Below are positions 5,142 to 18,322 of a DNA stretch of 64,000 nt, in pieces. The first letter of the stretch is position 1; each line of letters begins with the position of its first letter. The stretch is taken from contig JANXCY010000010.1 of the NCBI GenBank assembly GCA_025060135.1, positions 1 to 64,000 of the forward strand. Direction: 5' to 3'. The notes below the pieces were generated by a model. It did no database searches, was not told the origin of the DNA, and saw only the letters and a program-made list of their open reading frames with translations. Made by a program: the position numbers and the translations under genes. This stretch comes from Anaerolineae bacterium. Its GTDB lineage: Bacteria; Chloroflexota; Anaerolineae; B4-G1; DUEL01.

Positions 5142-5759
5142 TTACCAAGGGACGAAGCCGCTGTAGGTGGCCGTAGCAGGCCCCAAGTTCCATACCATCG
5201 GGTAATACCAGCCTGCCTGGTTCACCCGCAACTGGCAGGTTCCCGCTCCCCCGGAAATCTGACAGCCGTAGAAGACCCCGGATTGCTGGCTGGTGAGCCC
5301 GATGCGGAAGGTGGAAGTCGTGGGAGTCCAGGTGATAGAGATCGTGACCCCATTTCCCGCGTTATACCAGTACGGCCCGTAGAGGTGAGCGGCACTGGGA
5401 TTCAGCGTGCCGCTGATCGGTACAGAGCCCAGGGGGGCCTCCACCTTCCGGTATTCCCGCTGCACCTTTGCGGCCTCCAGGTTTTCCTTGACCGCGCGGA
5501 TTTCTCCTGCGGCTCGTCCTTCCAGGGTTACATCGCCCAGGTCAGTGGAGGGGAGTTCTGCTCCCGGCCCGGATGTGGTTGTGACCGGGCTGTTTGGGGC
5601 GGTCGCATCTCCGACCTGCAACTCATCTCCGGAGACGGTCCGGGCAGGCTTCAACGGGGGCGCTTCCCCGTTCCCGGCCCCCTGAGCCCACGCCATTCCT
5701 CCCAGCGCCAGACTCCCTGCTACAAGGAGGACAACGATAACCGTCAGAACCTTTTTCAT
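5142..5759 (-). CDS. secreted protein with C-terminal beta-sandwich-like domain
   Basis: 205 aa, function unknown. The signal peptide (MKKVLTVIVVLLVAGSLALG, cut near AWAQG) is followed by a disordered acidic/Pro-rich stretch. A C-terminal domain of about 90 residues starts near PISGTLNPSAAHLYGPYW and contains alternating hydrophobic strands, two cysteines (YGCQISGGAGTCQ) and a WYYPMVWNLG strand, reminiscent of pre-peptidase C-terminal or carbohydrate-binding beta-sandwiches. ATG 5759 is preceded by AGGAGGTG. It is transcribed from its own TTAAC-repeat promoter and ends at a strong terminator. Confidence 0.7.
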   Translation of the reverse strand: MKKVLTVIVVLLVAGSLALGGMAWAQGAGNGEAPPLKPARTVSGDELQVGDATAPNSPVTTTSGPGAELPSTDLGDVTLEGRAAGEIRAVKENLEAAKVQREYRKVEAPLGSVPISGTLNPSAAHLYGPYWYNAGNGVTISITWTPTTSTFRIGLTSQQSGVFYGCQISGGAGTCQLRVNQAGWYYPMVWNLGPATATYSGFVPW

Positions 5760-5804
5760 CTCACACCTCCTGAAATCTGTTGAAGGGACTCCTCAACCCA
5801 TTTC

Positions 5805-5837
5805 AGGATAGCCGAATGGCCGTTAAGCGGTTGTTAA
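5805..5837 (-). promoter_or_regulatory. TTAAC direct-repeat promoter, copy 2
   Basis: Minus strand: TTAAC-N6-TTAAC (plus-strand GTTAA at 5833-5837 and 5822-5826), N11, then TATCCT (5810-5805). Spacing is identical to copy 1. A further shared block, AAATnGGTTGAG, lies just downstream in both. I see nothing else between about 5840 and 6004. Confidence 0.7.
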
Positions 5838-6004
5838 AAAGTGAGCCAGAGGGCCGGGGATTCCAGAATGACCGGATAAACCCTCCAGGCGCGCCCGAGC
5901 GAACGGGAGTATCGGGTGGCTGATTGACTGCCTGTGGGGTCTGGATACTCCGGGATGACGAGCCGACCGGAAAGGGGCCGAGGATGCACAGCCACGAGAG
6001 ACTC

Positions 6005-6033
6005 TTGACAAAATTCGCGTTTTGTGGTATAAA
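6005..6033 (+). promoter_or_regulatory. strong promoter with internal inverted repeat, upstream of lpd
   Basis: TTGACA (6005-6010), 17-bp spacer, TATAAA (6028-6033). An inverted repeat ACAAAA-N6-TTTTGT (6008-6025) fills the spacer and is a candidate operator. The 5' leader is about 107 nt, with no feature I recognise. Confidence 0.75.
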
Positions 6034-6147
6034 AAGAAAGCACATTTGCGCATCCTACGCACATATGTTCACCCCCGATAGTCCTCTCGGAACGCAGCGG
6101 ATAGATCGATTGGAAGTCACGAAGTTGGCTTCCGGATAAGGTTCCGG

Positions 6148-7554
6148 ATGACGGCGAACAGCACCTCCGACGTGGTCGTCCTTGGAGGGGGGCCCGGGGG
6201 ATATGTGGCGGCGATTCGGGCTGCCCAACTGGGTCTCCAAGTAACGCTGGTGGAAAAAGAGGCCCTCGGCGGTATCTGCCTCAACTGGGGATGCATTCCC
6301 ACCAAATCCCTTCTCCGAAACGCGGAAGTGATCTCCCTTTTACAACAGGGAGATCTTTATGGCTTTACATTTCGGGACCTCCAGGTAGATTACAGCGCAG
6401 CCGTAGACCGCAGCCGTCAGGTGGTGGACCGGATGCAGAAGGGGATCGCCTCTCTGATGCGAAAGCACCAGATTCGTGTGCTGGAGGGCGTGGGACGGCT
6501 GGTATCGCCCAGAGAGGTGGTCGTGACCCCGAATCAAGGTGCCGAAGCAATCCATATCCATGCCCGTGCTATCATTGTGGCAACGGGCGGACGGGCCCGG
6601 ACGCTTCCTGGTGTGGAGGTGGACGGGGATCGGGTGATGCATTTTCGCCATGCTCTGGCTATGCGCGCATTGCCGCGCTCTATGGTGATTATTGGGGCCG
6701 GCCCCATCGGCGTGGAGTTTGCCTCCATCTGGCGCGCGTACGGAGTGGACGTTACCCTGGTAGAAATGATGCCTCATCTTCTCCCTTTAGAAGATGAGGA
6801 AGTTGCCCGCGAACTGGAGCGAGCGTTTCGCCGTCGGCAGGTGCGAGTTTTGACCTCGGCGCGGGTAGAGGCGGTGAATGTTCACAGCGATGGGGTACAG
6901 GTTTCGGTACAAAAAGAGGGGGGAGAGAAAGAAACGCTCCAGGCCGAGAAGGTCCTGGTAGCCATTGGCATTCAACCCAACACAGAAGGGATTGGCTTGC
7001 AAGAGTGCGGCGTCGCATTGGATAGAGGGTGGGTGGTAGTGGATGAACACATGCGAACGACCGTTCCAGGTATCTGGGCAGTGGGCGACGTTACGGGGAA
7101 ACTTCCTCTGGCTCACGTGGCGTCCGCCCAGGGTATTCTTGCTGCCGAGGACATCGCGGGCCAATCCCCACTCGGCCTGGATTACGAGGCCATGCCCCGC
7201 TGCGTGTACACCTCTCCGCAGGTTGCCAGTTTTGGACTCACGGAAACCCAGGCCCGGGAGCGAGGGTATAACGTTCAGGTAGGTCGTTTTCCCTTCATTG
7301 CCAACGGGAAAGCCGTGGCTTTAGAGGAACGTTCCGGGTTTGTGAAACTCGTGGTGGACCGCGCGTCTGGGTGGCTGCTGGGCGCTCATCTGGTTGGCCC
7401 CGAGGTAACCGAACTGGTATCCGAATTGGTACTGGCGCGCACAGCGGAATTGGTCCCCGAAATCATGGTCCGGGCAGTGCACCCGCACCCCACATTGAGT
7501 GAGACCCTTAGCGAGGCGGTTCGCGCCGCATTGGGACAGGCGCTTCATGCGTAA
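6148..7554 (+). CDS. lpdA: dihydrolipoyl dehydrogenase (E3)
   Basis: 468 aa, normal length. Re-oxidises dihydrolipoyl groups of 2-oxoacid dehydrogenase complexes with NAD+. It shows the FAD motif LGGGPGGYVAA (residues 12-22), the redox-active disulfide in GGICLNWGCIPTK (C44, C49), the NAD-binding IIGAGPIGVEFASI, AVGDVTG for FAD, and the C-terminal HPHPTLSE with the catalytic His/Glu dyad. It precedes the PTS and E1/E2 genes, so it most likely supplies E3 for the complex at 11476-14791. It has its own strong promoter, and 134 bp separate it from the EIIC gene. The ribosome-binding site before ATG 6148 is weak. Confidence 0.93.
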   Translation: MTANSTSDVVVLGGGPGGYVAAIRAAQLGLQVTLVEKEALGGICLNWGCIPTKSLLRNAEVISLLQQGDLYGFTFRDLQVDYSAAVDRSRQVVDRMQKGIASLMRKHQIRVLEGVGRLVSPREVVVTPNQGAEAIHIHARAIIVATGGRARTLPGVEVDGDRVMHFRHALAMRALPRSMVIIGAGPIGVEFASIWRAYGVDVTLVEMMPHLLPLEDEEVARELERAFRRRQVRVLTSARVEAVNVHSDGVQVSVQKEGGEKETLQAEKVLVAIGIQPNTEGIGLQECGVALDRGWVVVDEHMRTTVPGIWAVGDVTGKLPLAHVASAQGILAAEDIAGQSPLGLDYEAMPRCVYTSPQVASFGLTETQARERGYNVQVGRFPFIANGKAVALEERSGFVKLVVDRASGWLLGAHLVGPEVTELVSELVLARTAELVPEIMVRAVHPHPTLSETLSEAVRAALGQALHA

Positions 7555-7688
7555 AGGCTCAAGGGTCGGGCTTGCCACCCATCCCTGGAAAGGAGGTGAT
7601 CGGTATCGGCCAGGTTGTCCTATAGCAATTCCCAGGCGGACCTCATTCTGCTTCCACGACCTCTATTCACCCACTAAAGGAGGTAAAT

Positions 7689-9122
7689 ATGAACTGGCTA
7701 TTCGCGATCATTGACTGGATCAAAGGGCTTGGCGCCTCGGTGATGCTGCCCATCATGATCTTCCTCATTGGCTTGATCCTAGGCGCCAAGGCGGGACGGG
7801 CCTTCCGCTCGGCGGTAACCATCGGTATTGCCTTCGTGGGTATCGGCCTGGTGATCAATCTGCTGTGGACTAACCTGGGCGATGCCGCGCAGGCGATGGT
7901 ATCCCGCACCGGGGTTTCCCTGGATGTGGTAGACGTGGGATGGCCCGCCGCGGCGGCGATCGCCTTCGGGGGGACAGTGGGCACCTGGATTATTCCCCTC
8001 TCCATCCTGGTGAACATTATCATGCTGGTGACCCGGGGCACGAAGACGCTGAACGTGGACATCTGGAACTTCTGGCATTTTGCGTTCACCGGTGCCCTGG
8101 TCTACGCCGTTTCCCAGAATCTGGCCCTGGCTCTGGCGGCCGCGGCTCTGAATGCCGCCATCGCCCTCTTCCTGGCAGACTGGACGGCTCCCGGGGTTCA
8201 GGATTTCTACGGCGTGCCGACCATCTCCATCCCCCACGGCTTCTCGGCAGCCTACGTGCCTATTGCTATCCCCCTGAACAAACTCATTGACGTGATTCCG
8301 GGGCTGAACAAACTGCAAGCCGATCCGGAAACGATCCAGCGCCGCCTGGGGGTCCTGGGTGAGCCCATCATCCTGGGTGTGGTGATCGGCCTGATCCTGG
8401 GCTGTCTGGCCTGGCTGGGAGACCCCAATGTGGGCACTTTCGGCACCCAGTTGCAGAAAATCCTGGTGTTGGCCATTAACCTGGGCGCGGTCATGCTCCT
8501 GATGCCCCGGATGGTGGCTATCCTGATGGAGGGCTTGATCCCCATCTCCGAAGCGGCCCGCGAGTTTATGAAGCGCCGGTTCGCAGGCGGGGAGTTCTAC
8601 ATCGGCCTGGATTCCGCCATCCTCATCGGCCACCCGGCGGCTATCGCCACCGCCTTGCTGCTGGTTCCCGTCACCATCGCACTGGCGATCGGGCTAAGCG
8701 CGGTCGGCCTGAACCGCATCCTGCCCTTCGCGGACCTGGCGGTGATCCCCTTCATGGTCTGTATGATTGCTCCCATCACCCGGGGGAACATCGTGCGCGG
8801 GGTCATTATCGGCACCATCGTGATCGCGGTTGGCCTGATCCTGGGCACCTCTATCGCGCCGCTCCACACCGCAGCCGCCATCGACGCCAAGTTCAAGATG
8901 CCCGAAGGTGCCACCCAGATCGCCAGCATCTGCGACGGGACCAATCCGCTGACCTGGCTCCTCTTGAACTTCAGCAAACTGGGCGGCTGGATTGGGTGGG
9001 CGATCGCGGTGATCATCTTCGGGGTCATCGTCTTCCTCTACAAGCGAAATCCGACCGGCTGGGAAATAGCGGCGGGAGGACCCAGGCCTGAAAGCCTGTC
9101 CGCTGGCTCGTCCGAGAGCTAA
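7689..9122 (+). CDS. gatC: PTS galactitol-type permease, EIIC subunit
   Basis: 477 aa, polytopic membrane protein with about ten hydrophobic segments. It imports a polyol or sugar coupled to phosphorylation by the cognate EIIB. Similarity to GatC-type EIIC proteins is seen in the N-terminal MLPIMIFLIGLILG, in TLNVDIWNFWHF, and in the late DGTNPLTWLL. AAAGGAGG precedes the ATG by 6 nt. EIIA and EIIB are separate downstream genes, as in gat systems. No galactitol-phosphate dehydrogenase or aldolase is nearby, so the true substrate is open; 'galactitol' is only the family name. Confidence 0.87.
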   Translation: MNWLFAIIDWIKGLGASVMLPIMIFLIGLILGAKAGRAFRSAVTIGIAFVGIGLVINLLWTNLGDAAQAMVSRTGVSLDVVDVGWPAAAAIAFGGTVGTWIIPLSILVNIIMLVTRGTKTLNVDIWNFWHFAFTGALVYAVSQNLALALAAAALNAAIALFLADWTAPGVQDFYGVPTISIPHGFSAAYVPIAIPLNKLIDVIPGLNKLQADPETIQRRLGVLGEPIILGVVIGLILGCLAWLGDPNVGTFGTQLQKILVLAINLGAVMLLMPRMVAILMEGLIPISEAAREFMKRRFAGGEFYIGLDSAILIGHPAAIATALLLVPVTIALAIGLSAVGLNRILPFADLAVIPFMVCMIAPITRGNIVRGVIIGTIVIAVGLILGTSIAPLHTAAAIDAKFKMPEGATQIASICDGTNPLTWLLLNFSKLGGWIGWAIAVIIFGVIVFLYKRNPTGWEIAAGGPRPESLSAGSSES

Positions 9123-9150
9123 TCCGGTTGGGAGGCTCTCCTCTACGCGG

Positions 9151-9179
9151 ACGCGCGGGGCTGGGAGAGCCCCGCGCGT
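9151..9179. terminator. 12-bp GC hairpin after EIIC
   Basis: ACGCGCGGGGCT (9151-9162) pairs exactly with AGCCCCGCGCGT (9168-9179) around GGGAG. No U-tract follows; it may attenuate transcription into the regulator gene or protect the EIIC mRNA 3' end. Confidence 0.45.
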
Positions 9180-9198
9180 CTCCCCCTCAGTATCTGAA

Positions 9199-10152
9199 GT
9201 GGAACGGGAAGATTTTCTGGCCTATATCGCCGGGCTATACTATGAGGAAAATCTCACCGAAGCCGAGATTGGGCATCGGGTAGGACTCTCCCGTTCCACG
9301 GTCTCCCGGCTGCTGCGCGCGGCCCGGGAGGCTGGCATTGTCAAAATCATCATTGATTATCCCTGGCGGGTATCTCCGGAACTGGAACAAAAACTGACCG
9401 AACGGTTTCAACTGACCGAAGCCATTGTGCTGAAAGGGCAAGAACGGCCATATCCGGATGTCCTGAAAGGGCTGGGTATTTTGGCCGCCCGATACATAGA
9501 GAGCGTTCTCACCGATGGAATGGTCCTGGGTATTTCGTGGGGAACCGCTGTTCACAGCACTATTTTGGCTCTCAAACCCAAACCGTACACCGGTGTAAAG
9601 GTGGTTCAGATGATCGGAGCCGTGGGGACCAGTGATCCCCAGATAGATGGGCCGGAACTGGCCCGTCATCTGGCCAGCGTTTGTAACGGGGAATATCGGT
9701 TCCTGCACGCGCCTTTGATTGTGGAGTCTCCCCAGGTCCGGGACGCACTGTTACAGGAGCCCCATATTCGGGAGACGCTGGAAATGGCCCGCCAGGCCGA
9801 TCTGGCCCTGGTGGGTATTGGCTCTCCCCGCCCTGAGGTCTCCAGCCTCCTGCGCGCAGGCTATCTACCCCGGGAAGCCCTGACCCGGCTGTGGGAAGAA
9901 GGAGCCGTAGGAGACATCTGCGCCCGACACTACGACATCCAAGGACGTTTTCTGGACATCCCGCTCAACCAGCGGATCGTCGGTATTGATCCGGAGGGCA
10001 TCTGTCGTATCAAACAGGTCATTGGAGTGGCCGGAGGAGAGGCCAAAGCGGAGGCAATTCTGGGCGCATTGCGTTCCGGGTGCCTGGATGTGCTGGTTAC
10101 CGATGAAGCCGCTGCCCGAAAAGTGTTGCAGCTGGACGAAATGACGAGGTAA
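9199..10152 (+). CDS. SorC/DeoR-family sugar-responsive transcriptional regulator
   Basis: 317 aa. An N-terminal helix-turn-helix (about residues 18-45, LTEAEIGHRVGLSRSTVSRL) precedes the SorC effector domain (about 60-315), which typically binds a phosphorylated sugar; LGISWGTAVH, VQMIGAVG and ALVGIGSP are family-type segments. It lies between PTS genes and is the probable regulator of the cluster, sensing the imported sugar phosphate (inference). The start is GTG 9199, with no strong ribosome-binding site. Candidate targets are the inverted repeat at 6008-6025 and the 7555-7688 gap. Confidence 0.87.
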   Translation: MEREDFLAYIAGLYYEENLTEAEIGHRVGLSRSTVSRLLRAAREAGIVKIIIDYPWRVSPELEQKLTERFQLTEAIVLKGQERPYPDVLKGLGILAARYIESVLTDGMVLGISWGTAVHSTILALKPKPYTGVKVVQMIGAVGTSDPQIDGPELARHLASVCNGEYRFLHAPLIVESPQVRDALLQEPHIRETLEMARQADLALVGIGSPRPEVSSLLRAGYLPREALTRLWEEGAVGDICARHYDIQGRFLDIPLNQRIVGIDPEGICRIKQVIGVAGGEAKAEAILGALRSGCLDVLVTDEAAARKVLQLDEMTR

Positions 10153-10155
10153 CCT

Positions 10156-10581
10156 ATGTTTGACGCCCTGCTTCGGATGATCCTGGGAGAATGGGTCAGC
10201 CGTCTCCTGGACTTCTTAAAAGCCCATCCCGATCTGGTAACCACGATTTTTGCGCTCTGGCTGGGGCTGTTTGCCGCAGGCCGCTACCAGTTGTGGCGAA
10301 TTGAACAGAAGACGACGGAACTGGTGCTGGAGATGGCCCGGGACCTGATCGCCCAGAAGCCGAATATGACTGCCCAGGGGCTGTACAAACGCATCTATCC
10401 CCGGTGGGCAGAATCCCTGAGGCGCTGGGCCTGGTTTGTCCCCCATCGGTTTGAACTCTGGCCCGTTCCAGTCCGCCCGGATACCGTTCAGCAGAAAATC
10501 CCCTTCTCCCCTCAGTGGATTGCCGAGACTCTACGGCGGCACGGAGTGAGCCTGGCGGAATCCCCCCGAAGTGTTCGTTAA
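10156..10581 (+). CDS. small membrane protein of unknown function inside the PTS operon
   Basis: 141 aa, not recognised. One hydrophobic helix (about residues 27-47, LVTTIFALWLGLFAAGRYQLW) is followed by a charged, probably cytoplasmic region rich in Arg and Trp (RRWAWFVPHRFELWPV). It starts 3 bp after the regulator stop and ends 14 bp before the EIIA start, so it belongs to the transcription unit. It could be an accessory to the permease or regulator. Confidence 0.6.
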   Translation: MFDALLRMILGEWVSRLLDFLKAHPDLVTTIFALWLGLFAAGRYQLWRIEQKTTELVLEMARDLIAQKPNMTAQGLYKRIYPRWAESLRRWAWFVPHRFELWPVPVRPDTVQQKIPFSPQWIAETLRRHGVSLAESPRSVR

Positions 10582-10595
10582 AGGCGGGCTCAGCG

Positions 10596-11093
10596 ATGAT
10601 GATGGAATGGGTCCGGGAAGAATTGGTGATCGTGCCGATGCGCGCGAGAAGCGCGGCGGAGGTTATTACCCAATTGGGCATACGGCTGGAACAAGGAGGG
10701 TTTGTCAAACCCACCTGGATCCCAGCCGTTCTGGAACGGGAGAAGGCGTTCGCAACGGGTCTGCCCACGCCGGATGTGGGCGTTGCCATTCCTCACACGG
10801 ACCCGGAACACGTCGTCCGTCCGGCCATCGCCGTAGGGGTGCTGGAAAAACCGGTGGCTTTTGGGGAAATGGGCAACCCAGAAGGCGTGGTGCCCGTACA
10901 GATTGTCTGCGCGCTGGCTGTGGCCCAATCGGATTTGCTGGTGGCTCTGTTACAGCGTCTGGTGGATATGTTCCAGACCCCCGGCGTATTACAGCGTATC
11001 GCGGCCGCGAAAAGCCCGAAGGAGGTAGTGCAAATCTTTCAACAATATCTCCAGTGGAGCCAGCCCGCCGGGGCCGAAGAGCCTGTCGGGTAG
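10596..11093 (+). CDS. gatA: PTS EIIA subunit (fructose/mannitol/galactitol type)
   Basis: 165 aa. Takes phosphate from HPr onto His67 in the family motif VAIPHTDPEHV and passes it to EIIB. Length and motif match the PTS EIIA type-2 family. Translation starts at one of three consecutive in-frame ATGs; 10596 is the first. Cytosolic. Confidence 0.87.
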   Translation: MMMEWVREELVIVPMRARSAAEVITQLGIRLEQGGFVKPTWIPAVLEREKAFATGLPTPDVGVAIPHTDPEHVVRPAIAVGVLEKPVAFGEMGNPEGVVPVQIVCALAVAQSDLLVALLQRLVDMFQTPGVLQRIAAAKSPKEVVQIFQQYLQWSQPAGAEEPVG

Positions 11094-11169
11094 CCCATAT
11101 GCTGACGCAGGCGGCCTGGCCCAGCGGAATCCAGACGACTATCACCGAATAGGAGGAATAAAAACAAAA

Positions 11170-11463
11170 ATGGAAGAAAAACGTGTGTTAATCGCCTGTG
11201 GAACCTCCATCGCGACGGCGACCGTAGTGGCAGAGAAGGTCAAGGAAATTGCCCAGAAAGCGGGTATTCCGGTCAAGGTTGCCCAATGTAAGGCAGCGGA
11301 GGTCAAAGGACGGATTGAGACCTTTCGTCCCCACATTATTGTAGCCACCACGCTGGTTCCCAAGGACCTGGGGATTCCGGTGTTCAACGGGATTCCTTTC
11401 CTTTCCGGCGTTGGGGTGGAAGCCGTAGAAGCCCAGATTGTGGAAGCGTTAAAGAAAGCCTGA
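11170..11463 (+). CDS. gatB: PTS EIIB subunit (galactitol type)
   Basis: 97 aa. Phosphate carrier with the P-loop-like active site IACGTSIATAT; Cys10 is the phosphorylated residue. It passes phosphate to the substrate bound by EIIC. AGGAGG at 11151-11156 lies rather far (13 nt) from the ATG, through an A-rich stretch. It ends 12 bp before the E1alpha start, which physically joins the PTS and dehydrogenase genes. Confidence 0.88.
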   Translation: MEEKRVLIACGTSIATATVVAEKVKEIAQKAGIPVKVAQCKAAEVKGRIETFRPHIIVATTLVPKDLGIPVFNGIPFLSGVGVEAVEAQIVEALKKA

Positions 11464-11475
11464 AGCCAACGATCT

Positions 11476-12447
11476 ATGGCAAACGTCAGCCGTCTCAGTT
11501 TGGGGCAGAAGCGAGAACTTCTGCGCCAAATGTACTTGATCCGCGCCTTTGAGGAGAAGGCGGAGGAACTCTATGCGATGGGCAAGGTGCACGGAACCAT
11601 GCACCTTTCCATCGGGATGGAGGCTTCTGCGGTGGGCGCGATTGCAGCACTCCGGCCCGATGATTTTATCCTCAGCACCCATCGGGGGCATGGGCACTGT
11701 ATTGCCAAAGGTGCCGACCTGAACCAGATGATGGCGGAGTTTATGGGGAAGGAGACCGGAACCTGCAGGGGCCGGGGCGGTTCCATGCACATTGCTGACC
11801 CGGAAAAGGGCAACCTGGGTGCCAATGGAGTGGTGGCTGGAGGCATCCCCATCGCGGTGGGCGTGGGACTGGCTCTCAAAATGCAACGGCGGGACCAGGT
11901 GGTCATGTGTTTCTTCGGCGACGGCGCGGCGAATACCGGGGCGTTCCATGAGTCGCTGAATATGGCCGCGATCTGGTCGCTGCCTGTGGTGTTTGTGTGC
12001 GAAAACAATCAATACGCCATGTCGTTCCCGGTCCAGAAAGCCTTCCGGATCGCGCGCATCTCCGATCGCGCCGCTGCCTACGGGATGCCCGGCGTAACCG
12101 TGGACGGGAACGACATCCTGGCCGTTTATGCGGCTGCAAAGGAAGCTGTGGATCGGGCTCGGGCCGGTGGCGGGCCCACACTGATAGAGAACGTTACCTA
12201 TCGCTGGCGGGGCCATTCCAAGAGCGACGCCGGGCGATACCGGACCCGGGAAGAGGTAGAAGAATGGAAAAGAAAGTGCCCGATCCAGCGCTTCCGCCAG
12301 AGGTTGATAGAAGAAGGAGCCCTAAGCCCGGAAGAAGCCGACCGCATCCGGGATGAAGCCTATGCCGCTGTGGAAGCCGCTGTTGCCTTTGCCGAGGCCA
12401 GCCCGGAGCCCGCACTGGAGAGCATTGAAGAGGGAGTATATGCCTGA
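11476..12447 (+). CDS. thiamine-diphosphate-dependent 2-oxoacid dehydrogenase E1 alpha (pyruvate/acetoin type)
   Basis: 323 aa. Decarboxylates a 2-oxo acid (or cleaves acetoin) on thiamine diphosphate and loads the acetyl group onto lipoyl-E2. It shows [15 protein letters not shown], the ThDP motif [15 protein letters not shown]...NN, and the phosphorylation-loop-like [10 protein letters not shown]. The compact size and GSMH context resemble AcoA/PdhA of bacteria. Substrate (pyruvate, acetoin or branched-chain) cannot be fixed from sequence; coupling to a PTS, which releases pyruvate, favours pyruvate. Its stop overlaps the E1beta start (TGATG). Confidence 0.9.
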
Positions 12448-13433
12448 TGCGAGAATTGAGTTATGCTGAGGCGATTCGGGAGGCCCTGCGGCAGGAAATG
12501 CAGCGCGACGAACGGGTGTTCATCATCGGCGAGGATGTTGGCGTCTACGGCGGGGCGTTCGGAGTTACGCTGGGGCTGGTGGAAGAGTTCGGCGAGGAGC
12601 GGGTCATTGACACTCCCATCAGCGAGTTGGGAGTCGTTGGAGCCATGACCGGCGCGGCGCTGGTCGGGATGCGGCCCGTTGGCGAGATCATGTTTATGGA
12701 CTTCATCACCCTGGCTTCCGAACAACTGGTCAACCAGGCCGCCAAAATCCATTTCATGTTCGGCGGTAAAGAAAAAGTCCCGTTTGTCCTTCGCACTCCG
12801 GCGGGCTCAGGAACCGGCGCAGCCGCCCAGCACTCTCAGAGCCTGGAAAACTGGTTCGTCCATATCCCTGGCCTCAAGGTAGTGATGCCCAGCACCCCCT
12901 ACGATGCCAAAGGTCTGCTGATCGCTTCCATTCGGGACGACAATCCGGTCGTTTTTGTGGAACACAAGTTGCTCTACAAAGTCCGGGGACCAGTGCCGGA
13001 AGAGCCGTACACCATCCCCCTCGGCACGGCGGACGTGAAAAGGGAAGGACGGGACCTTACCGTTATCGCCACTTCCATCATGGTTCAGCGTGCCCTTCAG
13101 GCAGCAACCCTCCTGGCCGAAGAGGGCATTGAAGCCGAGGTGATCGACCCCCGTACCCTGAAGCCCCTGGATAAAGAGACGATCATCCGGTCCGTCATTA
13201 AAACGGGACGGGTGCTGATCGTGCATGAGGCCTGCAAAACCGGTGGCTTCGGAGGAGAACTGGCCGCCGTGATTGTGGAGAGCGAGGCATTTGACTATCT
13301 GGACGCTCCGGTCATTCGGCTTGCAGGCCGGGACATTCCTATCCCATATAATCGGACCCTGGAGTATCATACTGTGCCTCAGGTGGAAGACATCGTAGAG
13401 GCGGCCCGTCGCCTGGCGCAGGGGAGGGTGTAA
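12447..13433 (+). CDS. 2-oxoacid dehydrogenase E1 beta
   Basis: 328 aa, standard size. Forms the alpha2beta2 E1 heterotetramer with the preceding gene. Typical segments are the N-terminal [39 protein letters not shown], the [19 protein letters not shown] loop and the C-terminal [18 protein letters not shown] overlaps the upstream TGA and the downstream GTG starts 2 bp after its stop, so translation is probably coupled. Confidence 0.92.
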
Positions 13434-13435
13434 CT

Positions 13436-14791
13436 GTGGCGACCCCAGTGATTATGCCCAAACTGGAGATGGCCCAGGAGACGGCCACCGTCGTGGAGTG
13501 GCTGAAACGGGAAGGCGAGTATGTGGAGAAAGGGGAGCCCCTCCTGGTGGTGGAGACGGAGAAAATCACGGTAGAGATAGAGGCACCCGCTTCGGGCATC
13601 CTGGCCGGAGTACGGGTGGGGCCAGGAGATGTGGTCCCGGTTACCCAGATCATTGCCTACATCCTGGAGCCGGGGGAAGAACTCCCCGATGAAGCGCGCA
13701 CGGGAGTGGCTCCCGTTTCTGTCCCAGCCCGGCCATCGGTATCTCCTCTCCCCGAAATTCCTCCATCTCCGTCCGTCCCACCGCTCCGGGCGCCAGCCGC
13801 CACGCCGGTAGCCCGACGGCTCGCGGAGACCTACGGGATAGATTTGGGGACCGTCGTGGGCACCGGCCCGGGAGGACAGATTACCCGGTCGGACGTGGAG
13901 GCTGTTCGGGCACGATCCCGCGAACCGATGGTAGCCCCGCCGTCCCCCGAGCCCGAAAAAGTCCGGGCCACCCCTGCTGCCCGGCGGATCGCGCGGGAAC
14001 AGGGTGTAGACCTCACAACCCTTCGGGGAACCGGCCCGCGCGGTCGGATTCAGGCCGCAGACGTGCTCCAGGCTATCCAGATGGCCCCTCCGGCAGCCGC
14101 TCCCGAGGTGATCCCTCTGACCGGAATGCGGCGAACCATCGCGGAGCGCATGACGGCCAGTTACCAGGCGGTGCCGCATATTATGTTTACTGTCTCCGTG
14201 GACGTGGGGGCTCTGGAAGAGATGCGTGCCCGATTGAACCGGATGGCGGAGGCAGAGGGAGGGCCTCATATCTCGCTGACGGCTCTGCTGGTGAAAGCGG
14301 TTGCCTGGACTCTCCGGCGGCATCCCTGGCTGAACAGCACCTTGCGCGGTGAGGAAATCCATCTGTTGCCGGAGATCAACATCGGAGTGGCGGTGGCTCT
14401 GGATACCGGGCTGATTGTCCCCGTGGTGCATCAGGCAGACCGGAAGGGACTGGCAGAAATTGCGGCGGCCGTGAACGACCGGGTACGACGGGCCCGCGAG
14501 GGCCGGCTGACTCCGACGGACGTAGCCGGAGGGACCTTTACGATTTCCAACCTGGGGCCATTCGGGATCGAGCAGTTCACGGCAATTATCAATCCTCCCC
14601 AGGTGGCCATTCTGGCCGTGGGTGCAGCGACGCGACAACCTGTAGCGGATGACACGGGAGGGGTCCGGGTCCGCCCGATTATGAAGATGACCCTCTCCGT
14701 AGACCATCGGGTAGTGGATGGGGCTCAGGCAGCCTTGTTCCTGAAGGACCTGAAAACAGCGCTGGAATTCCCCTATTTCCTTTTATGTTAA
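13436..14791 (+). CDS. dihydrolipoamide acyltransferase (E2) with two peripheral-subunit-binding domains
   Basis: 451 aa. Core of the complex: carries acyl groups on lipoyl-lysine and transfers them to CoA. Order of domains: lipoyl domain (1-80) with Lys43 in VETEKITVEI; linker; a first subunit-binding domain (about 121-157, ATPVARRLAETYGIDL...GPGGQI); a second (about 180-217, ATPAARRIAREQGVDL...GPRGRI); a Pro/Ala linker; and the catalytic domain (about 225-451) with SVDHRVVDG near the end, where His/Asp are catalytic. Two subunit-binding domains are unusual. GTG start 2 bp after E1beta; no separate ribosome-binding site needed. Confidence 0.92.
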   Translation: MATPVIMPKLEMAQETATVVEWLKREGEYVEKGEPLLVVETEKITVEIEAPASGILAGVRVGPGDVVPVTQIIAYILEPGEELPDEARTGVAPVSVPARPSVSPLPEIPPSPSVPPLRAPAATPVARRLAETYGIDLGTVVGTGPGGQITRSDVEAVRARSREPMVAPPSPEPEKVRATPAARRIAREQGVDLTTLRGTGPRGRIQAADVLQAIQMAPPAAAPEVIPLTGMRRTIAERMTASYQAVPHIMFTVSVDVGALEEMRARLNRMAEAEGGPHISLTALLVKAVAWTLRRHPWLNSTLRGEEIHLLPEINIGVAVALDTGLIVPVVHQADRKGLAEIAAAVNDRVRRAREGRLTPTDVAGGTFTISNLGPFGIEQFTAIINPPQVAILAVGAATRQPVADDTGGVRVRPIMKMTLSVDHRVVDGAQAALFLKDLKTALEFPYFLLC

Positions 14792-14836
14792 TGGTGGGTT
14801 TTGGGGACGGAAACCTGTATCAACATAGGATAACCC

Positions 14837-15106
14837 ATGCCGGAAATCACGCTCACTGTACGCCACGAAGTAGGATTGCACGCGCGACCTGCCGCACTGT
14901 TTGTGCAGACAGCCAATCGCTTTAAGAGCAACATCGTCGTGATCCACGGCGAACGGAGGGCCAACGCCAAGAGTATACTGGGCGTGTTAACTTTGGGTGC
15001 CAATCAGGGAGCCATTATTACAGTCCGCGCCGAAGGGGAAGACGCCGACGAAGCACTGAAGGCGCTGGAGTTGCTCGTAGAAAGCAATTTCGGAGAAGCC
15101 GTATGA
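14837..15106 (+). CDS. ptsH: phosphocarrier protein HPr
   Basis: 89 aa. Accepts phosphate from EI on His15 (GLHARPA) and donates it to EIIA. Ser46 in NAKSILGV, the site used by HPr kinase in Firmicutes, is also present, though no kinase gene lies in the window. The stop overlaps the ptsI start (ATGA). Confidence 0.93.
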   Translation: MPEITLTVRHEVGLHARPAALFVQTANRFKSNIVVIHGERRANAKSILGVLTLGANQGAIITVRAEGEDADEALKALELLVESNFGEAV

Positions 15107-16827
15107 GAACCATCTGTGGGATTCCTGCCTCCCCTGGCATTGCCATTGGCCCGGTGTTCCAGTATCAACGCTCCCAACTCTCGATTGAACCGCGCCGGGT
15201 GGAAGACCCGGACGCGGAATGGCACCGCCTACAGGTGGCAATAGAGAAGGCCCGCGAGCAACTTCTTGCGATCTGCGCTTCGGTAAAGGAGAGCGGCCAA
15301 GAGTACACCGCGATTTTCCAGGCCCAGGCCCTGATGCTGGAAGACCCCGAGTTATTGACTGCTGTCCGGATGGCCATTGGTGAGCAGCGACTGAATGCTG
15401 AGGCCGCTCTGGCAAAGGTGGCAGAACAGTACGCGGAAATGCTGGCGACGCTGGAAGATGAGTATCTACGGGCTCGCGCGGCGGATGTGCGAGATGTCAA
15501 AGACCGGGTGCTCCGGATTCTGCTGGGCGTGGAGGATGCCCCTGCCAGGGCTCTCCATATCCCCTCGGTGATTGTGGCCCGCGACCTGACCCCTTCGGAT
15601 ACTGCCCTGCTGGACAAGTCGCTGGTGCTGGGCTTCTGTACCGTCGAGGGGGGACCTACCTCTCACACCGCGATTCTGGCCCGGGGCCTTGGCCTGCCTG
15701 CTGTAGTGGGTGCAGGCCCTCAGGTCCTGGATGTCCCCAACGGCACGACGGTGATTCTGGATGGCACGCAGGGCATGTTGTTGACCGAACCGGACCGCGA
15801 GACCCTGGAAGCGTATCGGTCGCGCCAGTCTGCCTATGCCGCTTTCCTGTGCACGGCGAAAGAAGCGGCTCACCTCCCGGCCATCACCCGCGATGGCCAT
15901 CGGGTGGAGGTGGTGGCCAACATCGGGAATGTGGAAGGGGCCCGAACTGCTCTGGAAGCCGGGGCCGAAGGCGTGGGATTGCTCCGAACGGAGTTCCTCT
16001 ATCTGGAGCGAGACCATCTCCCGGATGAGGAGGAACAGTATCAGGCCTATCGGGCCATTGTGGAGGTGTTTGGCGACCGGCCCGTCATTCTGCGCACGCT
16101 GGATATTGGTGGGGATAAAGACCTGCCCTACCTGTCATTGCCTCGGGAATTGAATCCTTTTCTGGGCCTGCGGGCTGTGCGCCTCTGCCTGGCCTATCCG
16201 GACCTCTTTCGTCCCCAATTACGGGCGGCCCTGCGGGCCGCTGTGGCTGGCAATCTCAAAATTATGTTCCCCATGATCGCCACTGTGGGGGAAGTGCGGC
16301 TGGCCAAAGCCATACTGGAGGAGTGCCGGGCCGAACTGCAAGCGGAGGGGAAACCGGTACCGGATCGGGTAGACGTGGGTATTATGGTGGAAATCCCCGC
16401 AGCGGCAGTTATGGCAGACCACCTGGCGGCGGAAGTGGACTTCTTCTCCATCGGCACCAACGACCTGAGCCAGTACACCATGGCCGCCGATCGGACCAAT
16501 GCCTCGGTCGCCCATCTGGCTTCGGCCTTCCACCCGGCTGTGTTGCGCCTGGTGCGAGACGTCATTTACGCGGCCCATGCCCAAGGAAAGTGGGTTGGCC
16601 TCTGTGGGGAACTGGCCGGAGAGCCCCTGGCTATCCCGATCCTGCTGGGGCTGGGGTTGGACGAATTCAGTATGAACCCCTCCGCCATTCCGGTGGCCAA
16701 GCACATCATCCGCTCACTGACCTGGGAAGAGACCCGGGAGATCGCCCGGGTCGCCCTGGAACTGGAGAGCGCCGATGCAGTGCAGGAATGGGTTCGGACC
16801 CAGATCCCGGAGGTCGCGAAGTTCTAA
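15103..16827 (+). CDS. ptsI: PTS enzyme I (PEP-protein phosphotransferase)
   Basis: 574 aa, standard length. Autophosphorylates from phosphoenolpyruvate, releasing pyruvate, and phosphorylates HPr. Active-site His188 lies in EGGPTSHTAILAR; PEP-binding segments include LRTEFLYL, RTLDIGGDKDLPY and FSIGTNDLSQYTMAADR, and the late GLCGELAGEP carries the active-site Cys. Having HPr and EI at the end of the operon makes the PTS self-contained. Confidence 0.95.
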   Translation: MRTICGIPASPGIAIGPVFQYQRSQLSIEPRRVEDPDAEWHRLQVAIEKAREQLLAICASVKESGQEYTAIFQAQALMLEDPELLTAVRMAIGEQRLNAEAALAKVAEQYAEMLATLEDEYLRARAADVRDVKDRVLRILLGVEDAPARALHIPSVIVARDLTPSDTALLDKSLVLGFCTVEGGPTSHTAILARGLGLPAVVGAGPQVLDVPNGTTVILDGTQGMLLTEPDRETLEAYRSRQSAYAAFLCTAKEAAHLPAITRDGHRVEVVANIGNVEGARTALEAGAEGVGLLRTEFLYLERDHLPDEEEQYQAYRAIVEVFGDRPVILRTLDIGGDKDLPYLSLPRELNPFLGLRAVRLCLAYPDLFRPQLRAALRAAVAGNLKIMFPMIATVGEVRLAKAILEECRAELQAEGKPVPDRVDVGIMVEIPAAAVMADHLAAEVDFFSIGTNDLSQYTMAADRTNASVAHLASAFHPAVLRLVRDVIYAAHAQGKWVGLCGELAGEPLAIPILLGLGLDEFSMNPSAIPVAKHIIRSLTWEETREIARVALELESADAVQEWVRTQIPEVAKF

Positions 16828-16913
16828 CTTGCCGAACCTGTGCATTGCTTCTTCGCGAAGGGAAGCCCAGGCGTTCTCTGGATGAAACCTGAGGGATGGG
16901 CAGGGAGGGGCTT

Positions 16914-16946
16914 AGAAAAAACGTGCGGGCAGTTTTCCTGCCCGCC
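16914..16946 (-). terminator. intrinsic terminator of gcvPA (minus strand)
   Basis: GCGGGCA (16925-16931) pairs with TGCCCGC (16939-16945). On the minus strand the hairpin is followed, after ACG, by a run of T (complement of A16915-16921). It may also stop plus-strand transcripts from ptsI. Confidence 0.7.
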
Positions 16947-16987
16947 CATAGCGCGATCGGTTCCTCATCAGAGCATTGGAGAGACCG

Positions 16988-18322
16988 TTACGCGGCCTCC
17001 TCCAGGGCCTCCACCAGCATGTCAATTTCCTGGCGCGGGTTCATCTCCGTTACACAAACCAGCATATGGTTCTGGAGATGAGGGTAATCCCGGCCCAGGT
17101 CGTATCCCCCGATGATGCCCCACTCGTCCAACAGATAATCGTTGATCTCCTTCACCGGCTTCGGGCAGCGGACGACAAACTCCTTGAAAAAAGGCTGGTC
17201 CCGCAGAACGGTATACGCGTCCAGCCGATCAATCCGGTCGGCAGCATAGTGGGCCTTGTGATAACAGATTTCGGCTACCCGACGCATCCCACAGCGGCCC
17301 AGCGCGGCCATATAGACCGCTGCGGCCAGCGCGACCAGCCCCTGGTTGGTGCAGATATTGGAGGTCGCCTTCTCTCGCCGGATATGCTGTTCCCGGGTGG
17401 AGAGGGTGAGCACAAACCCCCGTTTCCCCTCCACGTCCACCGTCTGCCCCACCAGACGTCCCGCCATTCGCCGGACGTACTCCATCCGGGTGGCGAAGAA
17501 ACCCAGATACGGGCCGCCGAAGTTGAGCCCGGCTCCCATCCCCTGCCCCTCACCCACCACGATGTCGGCGCCGAACGCCCCGGGGGGCTTCAGCAACCCC
17601 AGCGCGATGGGGTCGGCGACCACTACCAGGAGCGCGCCGACGCGATGGGCGGCTTCCGCATACGGGCTCAGGTCCTCAATCCGCCCCAGGAAATCCGGAT
17701 ACTGGATAATCAGACAGGCCGTCTCCTCGTCTACCCGTTCGGTTACCGGAGGGGCTCCGTCGCCCTCATCTCCGACGATGGTCAACCCCATCCCCTGGGT
17801 ATACGTGCGCACGACGGCGCGGTACTCAGGATGAACCCAGGGGGAAAGGACAACCCGGCGTCGCTTCAGACGGTGGACGTTAATGGCCGTGATGACCGCC
17901 TCGGCGGTGGCGGTGGCCCCATCGTAGTGGGACGCGTTGGAGACCTCCATACCGGTCAATTCGCAAATCATCGTCTGGTATTCAAAGATGGCCTGAAGGG
18001 TCCCCTGGCTGACCTCGGGTTGATAAGGGGTGTAGGCCGTGTAGAACTCCCCCCGGCGCAGGACCGCATCTACTACGGCGGGGACGTAGTGGCGATAGGC
18101 CCCTGCGCCCAGGAAGCAAGGGCCCTCAGCCGTGGTAAAATTCGCCGCGGCCAGGGCTTCCACCTCCCACCGAACCTCCATTTCCGAAACCGCCGGGGGA
18201 AGGTTCAGGTGGGGGAAACGGAATCGCTCGGGAACATCCTGAAACAGTTCTTCCACCGACTGGACGCCGATGGCTTCCAGCATCGCCTTACGGTCTTCTT
18301 CGGAATGCGGGATAAAGGGCAT
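16988..18322 (-). CDS. gcvPA: glycine dehydrogenase (decarboxylating) subunit 1
   Basis: 444 aa, standard for the split P-protein. With subunit 2 it decarboxylates glycine and loads aminomethyl onto GcvH. Recognisable are FLGAGAYRHYVPAVVD, FYTAYTPYQPEVSQGTLQ, NASHYDGATA and STREQHIRREKATSNICTNQ. The PLP lysine resides in subunit 2, which is not in this window; gcvT and gcvH are also absent. The gene follows the double-HTH regulator by 12 bp and shares its promoter and leader. GGGAGG precedes the ATG. Confidence 0.93.
   Translation of the reverse strand: MPFIPHSEEDRKAMLEAIGVQSVEELFQDVPERFRFPHLNLPPAVSEMEVRWEVEALAAANFTTAEGPCFLGAGAYRHYVPAVVDAVLRRGEFYTAYTPYQPEVSQGTLQAIFEYQTMICELTGMEVSNASHYDGATATAEAVITAINVHRLKRRRVVLSPWVHPEYRAVVRTYTQGMGLTIVGDEGDGAPPVTERVDEETACLIIQYPDFLGRIEDLSPYAEAAHRVGALLVVVADPIALGLLKPPGAFGADIVVGEGQGMGAGLNFGGPYLGFFATRMEYVRRMAGRLVGQTVDVEGKRGFVLTLSTREQHIRREKATSNICTNQGLVALAAAVYMAALGRCGMRRVAEICYHKAHYAADRIDRLDAYTVLRDQPFFKEFVVRCPKPVKEINDYLLDEWGIIGGYDLGRDYPHLQNHMLVCVTEMNPRQEIDMLVEALEEAA

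Follow-up and report, generated by a model that had tools for sequence, protein, structure and literature searches.

The present analysis concerns eleven co-directional genes at positions 6148-16827 of a 64,000-nucleotide stretch of DNA (hereafter, the window) from an Anaerolineae bacterium of the Chloroflexota (contig JANXCY010000010.1, positions 1 to 64,000). In this order, they encode dihydrolipoyl dehydrogenase (E3), the membrane component EIIC of a phosphotransferase system (PTS), a SorC-type regulator, a small membrane protein, EIIA, EIIB, the E1alpha, E1beta and E2 subunits of a dehydrogenase complex, HPr, and PTS enzyme I (EI). From sequence comparison, we suggest that these genes form a compact operon for the catabolism of a 1-deoxyketose, with 1-deoxy-D-xylulose (DX) as the likeliest candidate, a reading to which we give about an even chance. 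Equally balanced is our confidence that the complex would be an acetoin-dehydrogenase-like enzyme cleaving a 1-deoxyketose phosphate, most likely 1-deoxy-D-xylulose 5-phosphate (DXP), to acetyl-CoA and glyceraldehyde 3-phosphate. More tentatively, and slightly short of even, we propose a catabolic route for sugars of the methylerythritol phosphate (MEP) pathway in Chloroflexota, Spirochaetota, Bacillota, and Alphaproteobacteria. By this route, DX and, where the DXR-like protein DRL (DXR-II) is encoded, probably 2-C-methyl-D-erythritol would enter the cell and be turned into DXP, which a lipoyl-linked 'DXP dehydrogenase (acetyl-transferring)' would then cleave.

In the predicted pathway, the galactitol-type (Gat) PTS would phosphorylate DX at O5 on import, delivering DXP directly. 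The thiamine pyrophosphate (TPP) of E1 would attack the C2 ketone and break the C2-C3 bond as acetoin dehydrogenase does, releasing D-glyceraldehyde 3-phosphate. The hydroxyethyl group would be oxidised onto the lipoyl arm of E2 and leave as acetyl-CoA, while E3 would hand the electrons to NAD+, forming NADH. The SorC protein would serve as the sensor of a sugar phosphate. If true, such cleavage is DXP synthase chemistry run backwards in effect. There is precedent (PMC3424233): given pyruvate and glyceraldehyde, purified pyruvate dehydrogenase (PDH) makes DX, and DXP arises in vivo in aceE mutants. We infer the substrate, the cleavage chemistry, and the regulator ligand; the gene content, the motifs, the conserved linkage, the DRL genes of related operons, and the failure to detect an MEP pathway in the host are observations. 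The genes are as follows.

6148-7554, + strand: lpd, dihydrolipoyl dehydrogenase (E3); TIGR01350 563 bits against a cut-off of 409, redox motif CLNWGC
7689-9122, + strand: PTS EIIC, Gat family, of the E1/E2-linked clade; PF03611 2e-88, TIGR00827 480 bits
9199-10152, + strand: SorC/DeoR-type regulator of the sugar-phosphate-responsive type; sugar-binding domain PF04198 1e-74, best NCBIfam model that of Bacillus DeoR, below its cut-off
10156-10581, + strand: small helical membrane protein of a new PTS-linked family, without a Pfam match
10596-11093, + strand: PTS EIIA, EIIA-2 family, His67; PF00359 1.5e-28, motif IPHTD
11170-11463, + strand: PTS EIIB, Gat-like, Cys10; PF02302 1e-7, galactitol EIIB model 6e-20 (best in NCBIfam), motif ACGTS
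11476-12447, + strand: E1alpha, TPP-dependent dehydrogenase of the sugar-operon type; PF00676 8e-98, signature HGTMHL...THRGHGH...GHSKSD
12447-13433, + strand: E1beta; NF006667 410 bits, nearest solved chains those of PDH E1beta
13436-14791, + strand: E2 acyltransferase with one lipoyl, two E3/E1-binding, and one catalytic domain; PF00364, PF02817 (2 stretches), PF00198 1e-84
14837-15106, + strand: HPr with a His15-type motif and a Ser46-like site; PF00381 3e-31, GLHARP, AKSILGVL
15103-16827, + strand: PTS enzyme I (EI); TIGR01417 631 bits, sole copy in the genome

An earlier reading of this sequence (the original prediction) had described a self-contained PTS interleaved with a set of closely spaced dehydrogenase genes, and this description holds. 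All eleven open reading frames (ORFs) are present at these coordinates and match the expected families in Pfam and NCBIfam profile searches. The measured gaps are 12 nucleotides between EIIB and E1alpha, 2 between E1beta and E2, and 45 between E2 and HPr, with overlaps of 1 nucleotide between E1alpha and E1beta and 4 between HPr and EI; 3 nucleotides separate SorC from the membrane protein and 14 the latter from EIIA. Wider gaps lie between lpd and EIIC (134 nucleotides), EIIC and SorC (76), and EIIA and EIIB (76). The PTS is self-contained in that its EI is the only PF05524 match in the genome (G000), and its phospho-acceptor motifs are intact (IPHTD with His67 in EIIA, ACGTS with Cys10 in EIIB, GLHARP in HPr, and GGPTSH in EI). 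EIIC belongs to the EIIC-GAT family (PF03611, 297 bits against a cut-off of 24) and falls below the stricter galactitol model (TIGR00827, 480 against 542). The window cluster contains no galactitol catabolic genes and, by ORF list and family searches, no other sugar-catabolic enzyme.

All of E1, E2, and E3 are present with TPP and lipoyl motifs, including the lipoyl ETEK and catalytic DHRVVDG of E2. The E1alpha signature HGTMHL...THRGHGH...GHSKSD lacks the PDH-type residues, as human PDH reads GFCHL..AYRAHG..GHSMSD. E1s of acetoin-type operons read PGFVHL..THRGHGH..GHFEGD, and the HGTMHL and GHSKSD of the window E1alpha set it apart from the Aco type as well. The two residues that define the signature are circular as evidence, because it was picked with the loci already known; Lys249 of E1alpha and Ser121 and Thr123 of E1beta (near the QHSQ motif) also separate the E1 groups and were not chosen for it. 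A tree holding all 53 signature E1s together was not rejected (p-AU 0.53), which is compatible with a clade and is not proof of one. A PDB sequence search with E1alpha returned PDH and branched-chain enzymes and no acetoin dehydrogenase; therefore, E1 specificity is not readable from a template. As a separate observation, the peripheral subunit-binding domains of E2 stand in tandem, at residues about 122-160 and 178-213 (ATPVARR at 122, ATPAARR at 178).

Searching GTDB genomes with EIIC yielded 80 loci, onto which the window proteins were mapped (loci carry L numbers throughout). Many Chloroflexota, some Spirochaetota, Neobacillus, and alphaproteobacterial plasmids keep the PTS-dehydrogenase linkage, with the genes in the same order or rearranged. 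Gene order is identical to that of the window in Thermoflexia/Anaerolineae contigs L012, L013, and L018 (lpd also lies 5' of EIIC in L013), and many other Anaerolineae have SorC-E1alpha-E1beta-E2-EIIA-EIIB-EIIC-(HPr-EI) or similar. Spirochaetes follow EIIC-EIIA-EI-EIIB-..-HPr; E1/E2 are present in L024, in L041, and likewise in Neobacillus (L073). That the partners recur though their order differs argues for functional linkage. The original prediction had named absence of the synteny from other genomes as refuting; instead, its recurrence supports a conserved linkage beyond chance. SorC lies near 40 of 47 signature E1 loci and a PTS near 36 of 47, fractions somewhat inflated because part of the positive set was kept for DRL or Gat presence; among the non-signature E1 loci, none of the 13 that offer 3.5 kb or more of context has SorC, PTS, or DRL. 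For a proposed group of DXP-linked E1/E2/E3 operons, SorC and a sugar importer beside signature E1/E2 would be one mark, which the window has, and DRL in the operon another, which it lacks. The importer type varies (Gat-PTS, glucitol-PTS, or ABC, some with a kinase), with SorC and E1/E2 constant. In the EIIC tree, E1-linked Chloroflexota sequences form one clade of 31 rows (support 97/94), which an alphaproteobacterial plasmid EIIC joins; the locus of the latter (L178) also carries DRL and E1/E2. Polyol-type Bacillota EIICs fall outside the clade.

The substrate prediction draws largely on DRL. DRL/DXR-II, recognised by the Pfam families DRL_cat (E 6e-62 to 4e-65) and SAF, adjoins a glucitol-type PTS in L032, L073, and L014, together with E1/E2 in the first two and with Gat EIIC in L014. 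Ten alphaproteobacterial plasmid loci encode a DRL of ~440 residues directly 5' of E1alpha-E1beta-E2, with E1alpha about 60% identical to that of the window; in several, E3, lipoyl synthase, or class II aldolase comes next. Rhizobial plasmids have a SorC-DRL-E1alpha-E1beta-E2-E3 operon type with ABC transporters and no PTS, and a kinase in some. The Sinorhizobium DRL aligns over its full length with the Brucella DRL structures 3UPL/3UPY (E 1.8e-202). Thr229 and Arg320 are DXR-II-specific residues (PMC3847144), and every E1-linked DRL whose sequence covers these sites retains both. DRL occurs in 18 of the 47 signature loci. Twelve of the 47 have a glucitol-type PTS, always with DRL (12/12; Fisher 3.6e-7 for the association over the 47 loci); the six further DRL loci are mostly rhizobial ones with ABC importers or no importer seen. 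A Gat-type PTS is found in 30 of the 47, 24 of them without DRL. One locus (L157, genome G208) holds SorC, GutM, glucitol PTS, DRL, Gat PTS, E1, E2, HPr, and EI in one run. The simplest reading of this modular pattern is that the product of the glucitol-type PTS would need DRL before use by E1 and the Gat product would not. Since DRL interconverts MEP and DXP, the glucitol product would be MEP, and the Gat product, and with it the E1 substrate, would be DXP.

The host is in keeping with a catabolic role. Genome-wide tests, run family by family, found in the own genome no DXS (only a weak match, to the window E1 itself), no DXR-I over cut-off (also missing in 19 of 20 other relatives tested), and no true ThiG (a weak partial match only). 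HMG-CoA reductase is present, cut at a contig end, and complete in several relatives. With DXS, DXR-I, DRL, and true ThiG lacking and HMG-CoA reductase present, nothing points to a biosynthetic use of DXP in this host; DXP would be purely catabolic, and its consumption by the complex would take nothing from isoprenoid synthesis. POR-type pyruvate oxidoreductase domains occur in all 21 genomes tested (the own genome and 20 relatives). E1 matches in the own genome are the window E1, a contig-edge fragment on contig C70 (46% identical to it), and a weak transketolase-like match; in most genus mates, E1_dh is unmatched or matched only weakly, by a transketolase-like sequence. The original prediction took PTS sets to be uncommon in Chloroflexota and acquisition as a block to be possible. 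The former fails for the PTS overall, as the EI N-domain is present in 34 of 60 relatives, and stands for Gat EIIC alone, which is patchy (10/60 by family profile search). This count and the absent or weak E1 of most genus mates make block acquisition plausible.

Several points weigh against DXP as the substrate of the window complex. DRL is encoded neither in the cluster nor elsewhere in its genome, and the connection to DXP is therefore drawn from relatives; with an assembly of 144 contigs at 95% completeness, such absences are not absolute. DRL homologs may also act on other compounds. When the glucitol PTS-DRL association is counted over independent, supported tree pairs, 5 agree and 0 disagree (p=0.0625). 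Some closely related E1s are encoded away from sugar-transport operons (L146, L174), and L044, L045, and L053 add UlaE/UlaD-like enzymes, which a two-step pathway leaves unexplained. Pfam searches on neighbours of the PTS-less E1s (L146, L152, L159, L174, and one of L137) mostly gave no clear pathway; a sugar kinase stands beside E1/E2 in L152 and a xylose-isomerase-like barrel in L174.

The original prediction was that pyruvate formed from phosphoenolpyruvate (PEP) by EI during sugar import is passed to an ordinary PDH complex co-expressed with the PTS, yielding acetyl-CoA. We regard this as unlikely, although E1alpha narrowly exceeds the PDH model cut-off (TIGR03182, 395.5 against 393.85 bits), the best solved relatives of E1 are PDH E1s, and PTS genes adjoin E1/E2 in many Chloroflexota, with EI/HPr directly 3' of E2. 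The linkage itself is upheld, but the purpose assigned to it is weakly supported: the E1 signature is unlike that of PDH, the relatives tested all have POR-type enzymes while most genus mates lack such an E1, and the same operon type occurs with ABC transport, where no PTS turns PEP into pyruvate. The DRL association would also remain unexplained. A housekeeping PDH as the sole role was rejected, given the universality of POR-type enzymes in the relatives tested. Less probable still is that the complex cleaves another acyloin-type sugar phosphate, such as a 1-deoxyhexulose phosphate or a stereoisomer derived from 2-methylthreitol. The diverse importers, the UlaE/UlaD-type enzymes of some relatives, and the fact that DRLs outside the Brucella-type sequences are only about 40% identical would suit such a substrate; nevertheless, distant DRLs, that of a Chloroflexus among them, are verified DXR-II enzymes (PMC3847144), and T229/R320 are conserved.

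It is very improbable, in our view, that the complex is an acetoin dehydrogenase and the PTS serves an unrelated polyol. One E1 motif is common to window-type and acetoin-operon E1s, but the E1s beside AcoR-type regulators or 2,3-butanediol dehydrogenase (L095, L097) read PGFVHL and GHFEGD and can be placed outside a clade of sugar-linked E1s (p-AU 0.53), and the window cluster has SorC and the PTS in place of AcoR or butanediol dehydrogenase genes. That a housekeeping HPr/EI pair and a dehydrogenase operon were joined by chance is scarcely credible. The patchy distribution would fit an accidental neighbourhood, but the comparative data already contradict it, as the linkage recurs across phyla in different orders and the non-signature E1 loci lack SorC, PTS, and DRL. 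The signal molecule autoinducer-2 (AI-2), considered as a substrate on account of the SorC regulator, was set aside; DRL, not Lsr genes, accompanies the relatives.

The small membrane protein may be an accessory EII subunit. A profile built from the window protein and 15 Chloroflexota homologs matched 43 loci, among them Spirochaetes and a single Verrucomicrobiota record, reaching E-values of 1e-48; a reversed-sequence control gave nothing below E 1.7. All listed loci have a Gat PTS, the E1 cluster, or both (e.g. window 10156-10581, L035:7966-8325, L044:11436-11939). Its AlphaFold2 model is confident and mostly helical (pLDDT 88.5), and a fold search with this model found no PDB match with E below 3. 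In Gat PTS clusters of Spirochaetes and Verrucomicrobiota (L034, L035, L040, L051, L088), a DeoR regulator, and in several also a DUF498 protein, lies between EIIB and the small membrane protein. In L044, L045, and L053, a UlaE-like 3-epimerase and a UlaD/HPS-like decarboxylase lie directly 5' of E1alpha, inside the Gat-PTS cluster.

DRL has further contexts. On a Rhizobium rhododendri plasmid (L093), a thiC-thiO-thiS-thiazole synthase-thiE-thiD operon stands beside the DRL-E1-E2 operon; thiazole synthase uses DXP, and E1 needs TPP. L137-L140, of the same class as the window, contain FGGY kinase-DRL-zinc dehydrogenase clusters, two with SorC nearby and none with E1/E2 nearby, possibly another DRL pathway in Chloroflexota. 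In genome G049, which has a cluster of this kind, a separate contig (L174) encodes E1/E2 78-84% identical to those of the window.

Two features read from the non-coding sequence are listed below.

6005-6033, + strand: promoter-like TTGACA-17-TATAAA, near-consensus, 5' of lpd; read from sequence, a consensus match only
9149-9181, + strand: strong GC hairpin with a 14 bp stem and no T-run after it, between EIIC and SorC; fold z-score -3.3

The pattern scanner missed the former because the last base of its second hexamer is A. Scanning the window for promoter and terminator patterns gave sites not above the level of shuffled sequence, so operon boundaries are not decided by the scan, and no promoter or terminator between cluster genes can be argued from consensus scans. 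An Rfam search of 5700-17300 found no RNA family. A Shine-Dalgarno-like AAGGRGGTG(A) (window 7587-7600) is kept ~80-140 nucleotides 5' of EIIC in eight loci (the window, L012-L016, L018, and L019) with diverged flanking sequence; inspection of the eight by eye revealed no conserved leader peptide there. Just 3' of EI, on the minus strand (16988-18322), lies a likely glycine decarboxylase subunit 1 gene (gcvPA), named from sequence.

DXP and MEP are known as biosynthetic intermediates of isoprenoids, and DXP also of vitamins B1 and B6. In the literature (subscription papers outside our scope), we found no degradation pathway for DXP/MEP, methylerythritol, deoxyxylulose, or 2-methyltetrols, and no described E1-DRL linkage. 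Plants contain the sugar methylerythritol, and the oxidation of isoprene gives rise to 2-methyltetrols in aerosols. If true, the DXP route could therefore matter for carbon turnover in soil and on leaves, and the 'pyruvate dehydrogenase' annotations of this E1/E2 group would be corrected. Chloroflexus and Finegoldia have a working DXR-II although they lack the MEP pathway, which a survey of DXR-II did not account for (PMC3847144); a catabolic DXP-cleaving complex, if true, would explain it.

Among known systems, the acetoin dehydrogenase complex (AcoABCL) shares the TPP-dependent alpha2beta2 E1 with E2 and E3, the THRGHGH motif, and the predicted C-C cleavage of a methyl-ketol to acetyl-CoA and an aldehyde. 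It differs in E1 signature residues, in having AcoR where the window has SorC, in the two subunit-binding domains of the window E2, and in the sugar importer of the window operon and the DRL of related operons elsewhere. The PDH complex (PdhABCD) is alike in the domain make-up of E1, E2, and E3, and its NCBIfam E1alpha model is narrowly passed; operon context and signature residues are unlike, and POR-type pyruvate oxidoreductases are encoded elsewhere in the genome. The galactitol/arabitol-type PTS (Gat family, TC 4.A.5) matches in the architecture and family membership of EIIA, EIIB, and EIIC. In contrast, the window EIIC sits in its own clade, a small membrane protein is added, and the cluster has no polyol-phosphate dehydrogenase; Bacillota relatives of this PTS have zinc dehydrogenases in place of E1/E2. 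The Brucella-type DRL/DXR-II, encoded beside E1/E2 in related operons, is absent from the window and its genome, where the predicted PTS product is already DXP. The Lsr system for AI-2 degradation, with its SorC-family LsrR, takes up a C5 methyl-ketone sugar by an ABC importer, phosphorylates it by a kinase, and splits it to acetyl-CoA and triose phosphate, the acetyl-CoA being made by the thiolase LsrF. The window cluster resembles it in its SorC-family regulator and in the predicted splitting of a phosphorylated C5 methyl-ketone sugar to the same products. Here, however, a TPP-lipoyl complex stands in place of the thiolase and a PTS in place of the ABC importer and kinase, with no Lsr genes seen. 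Each part is of a known kind; what is new is their combination and the predicted substrate.

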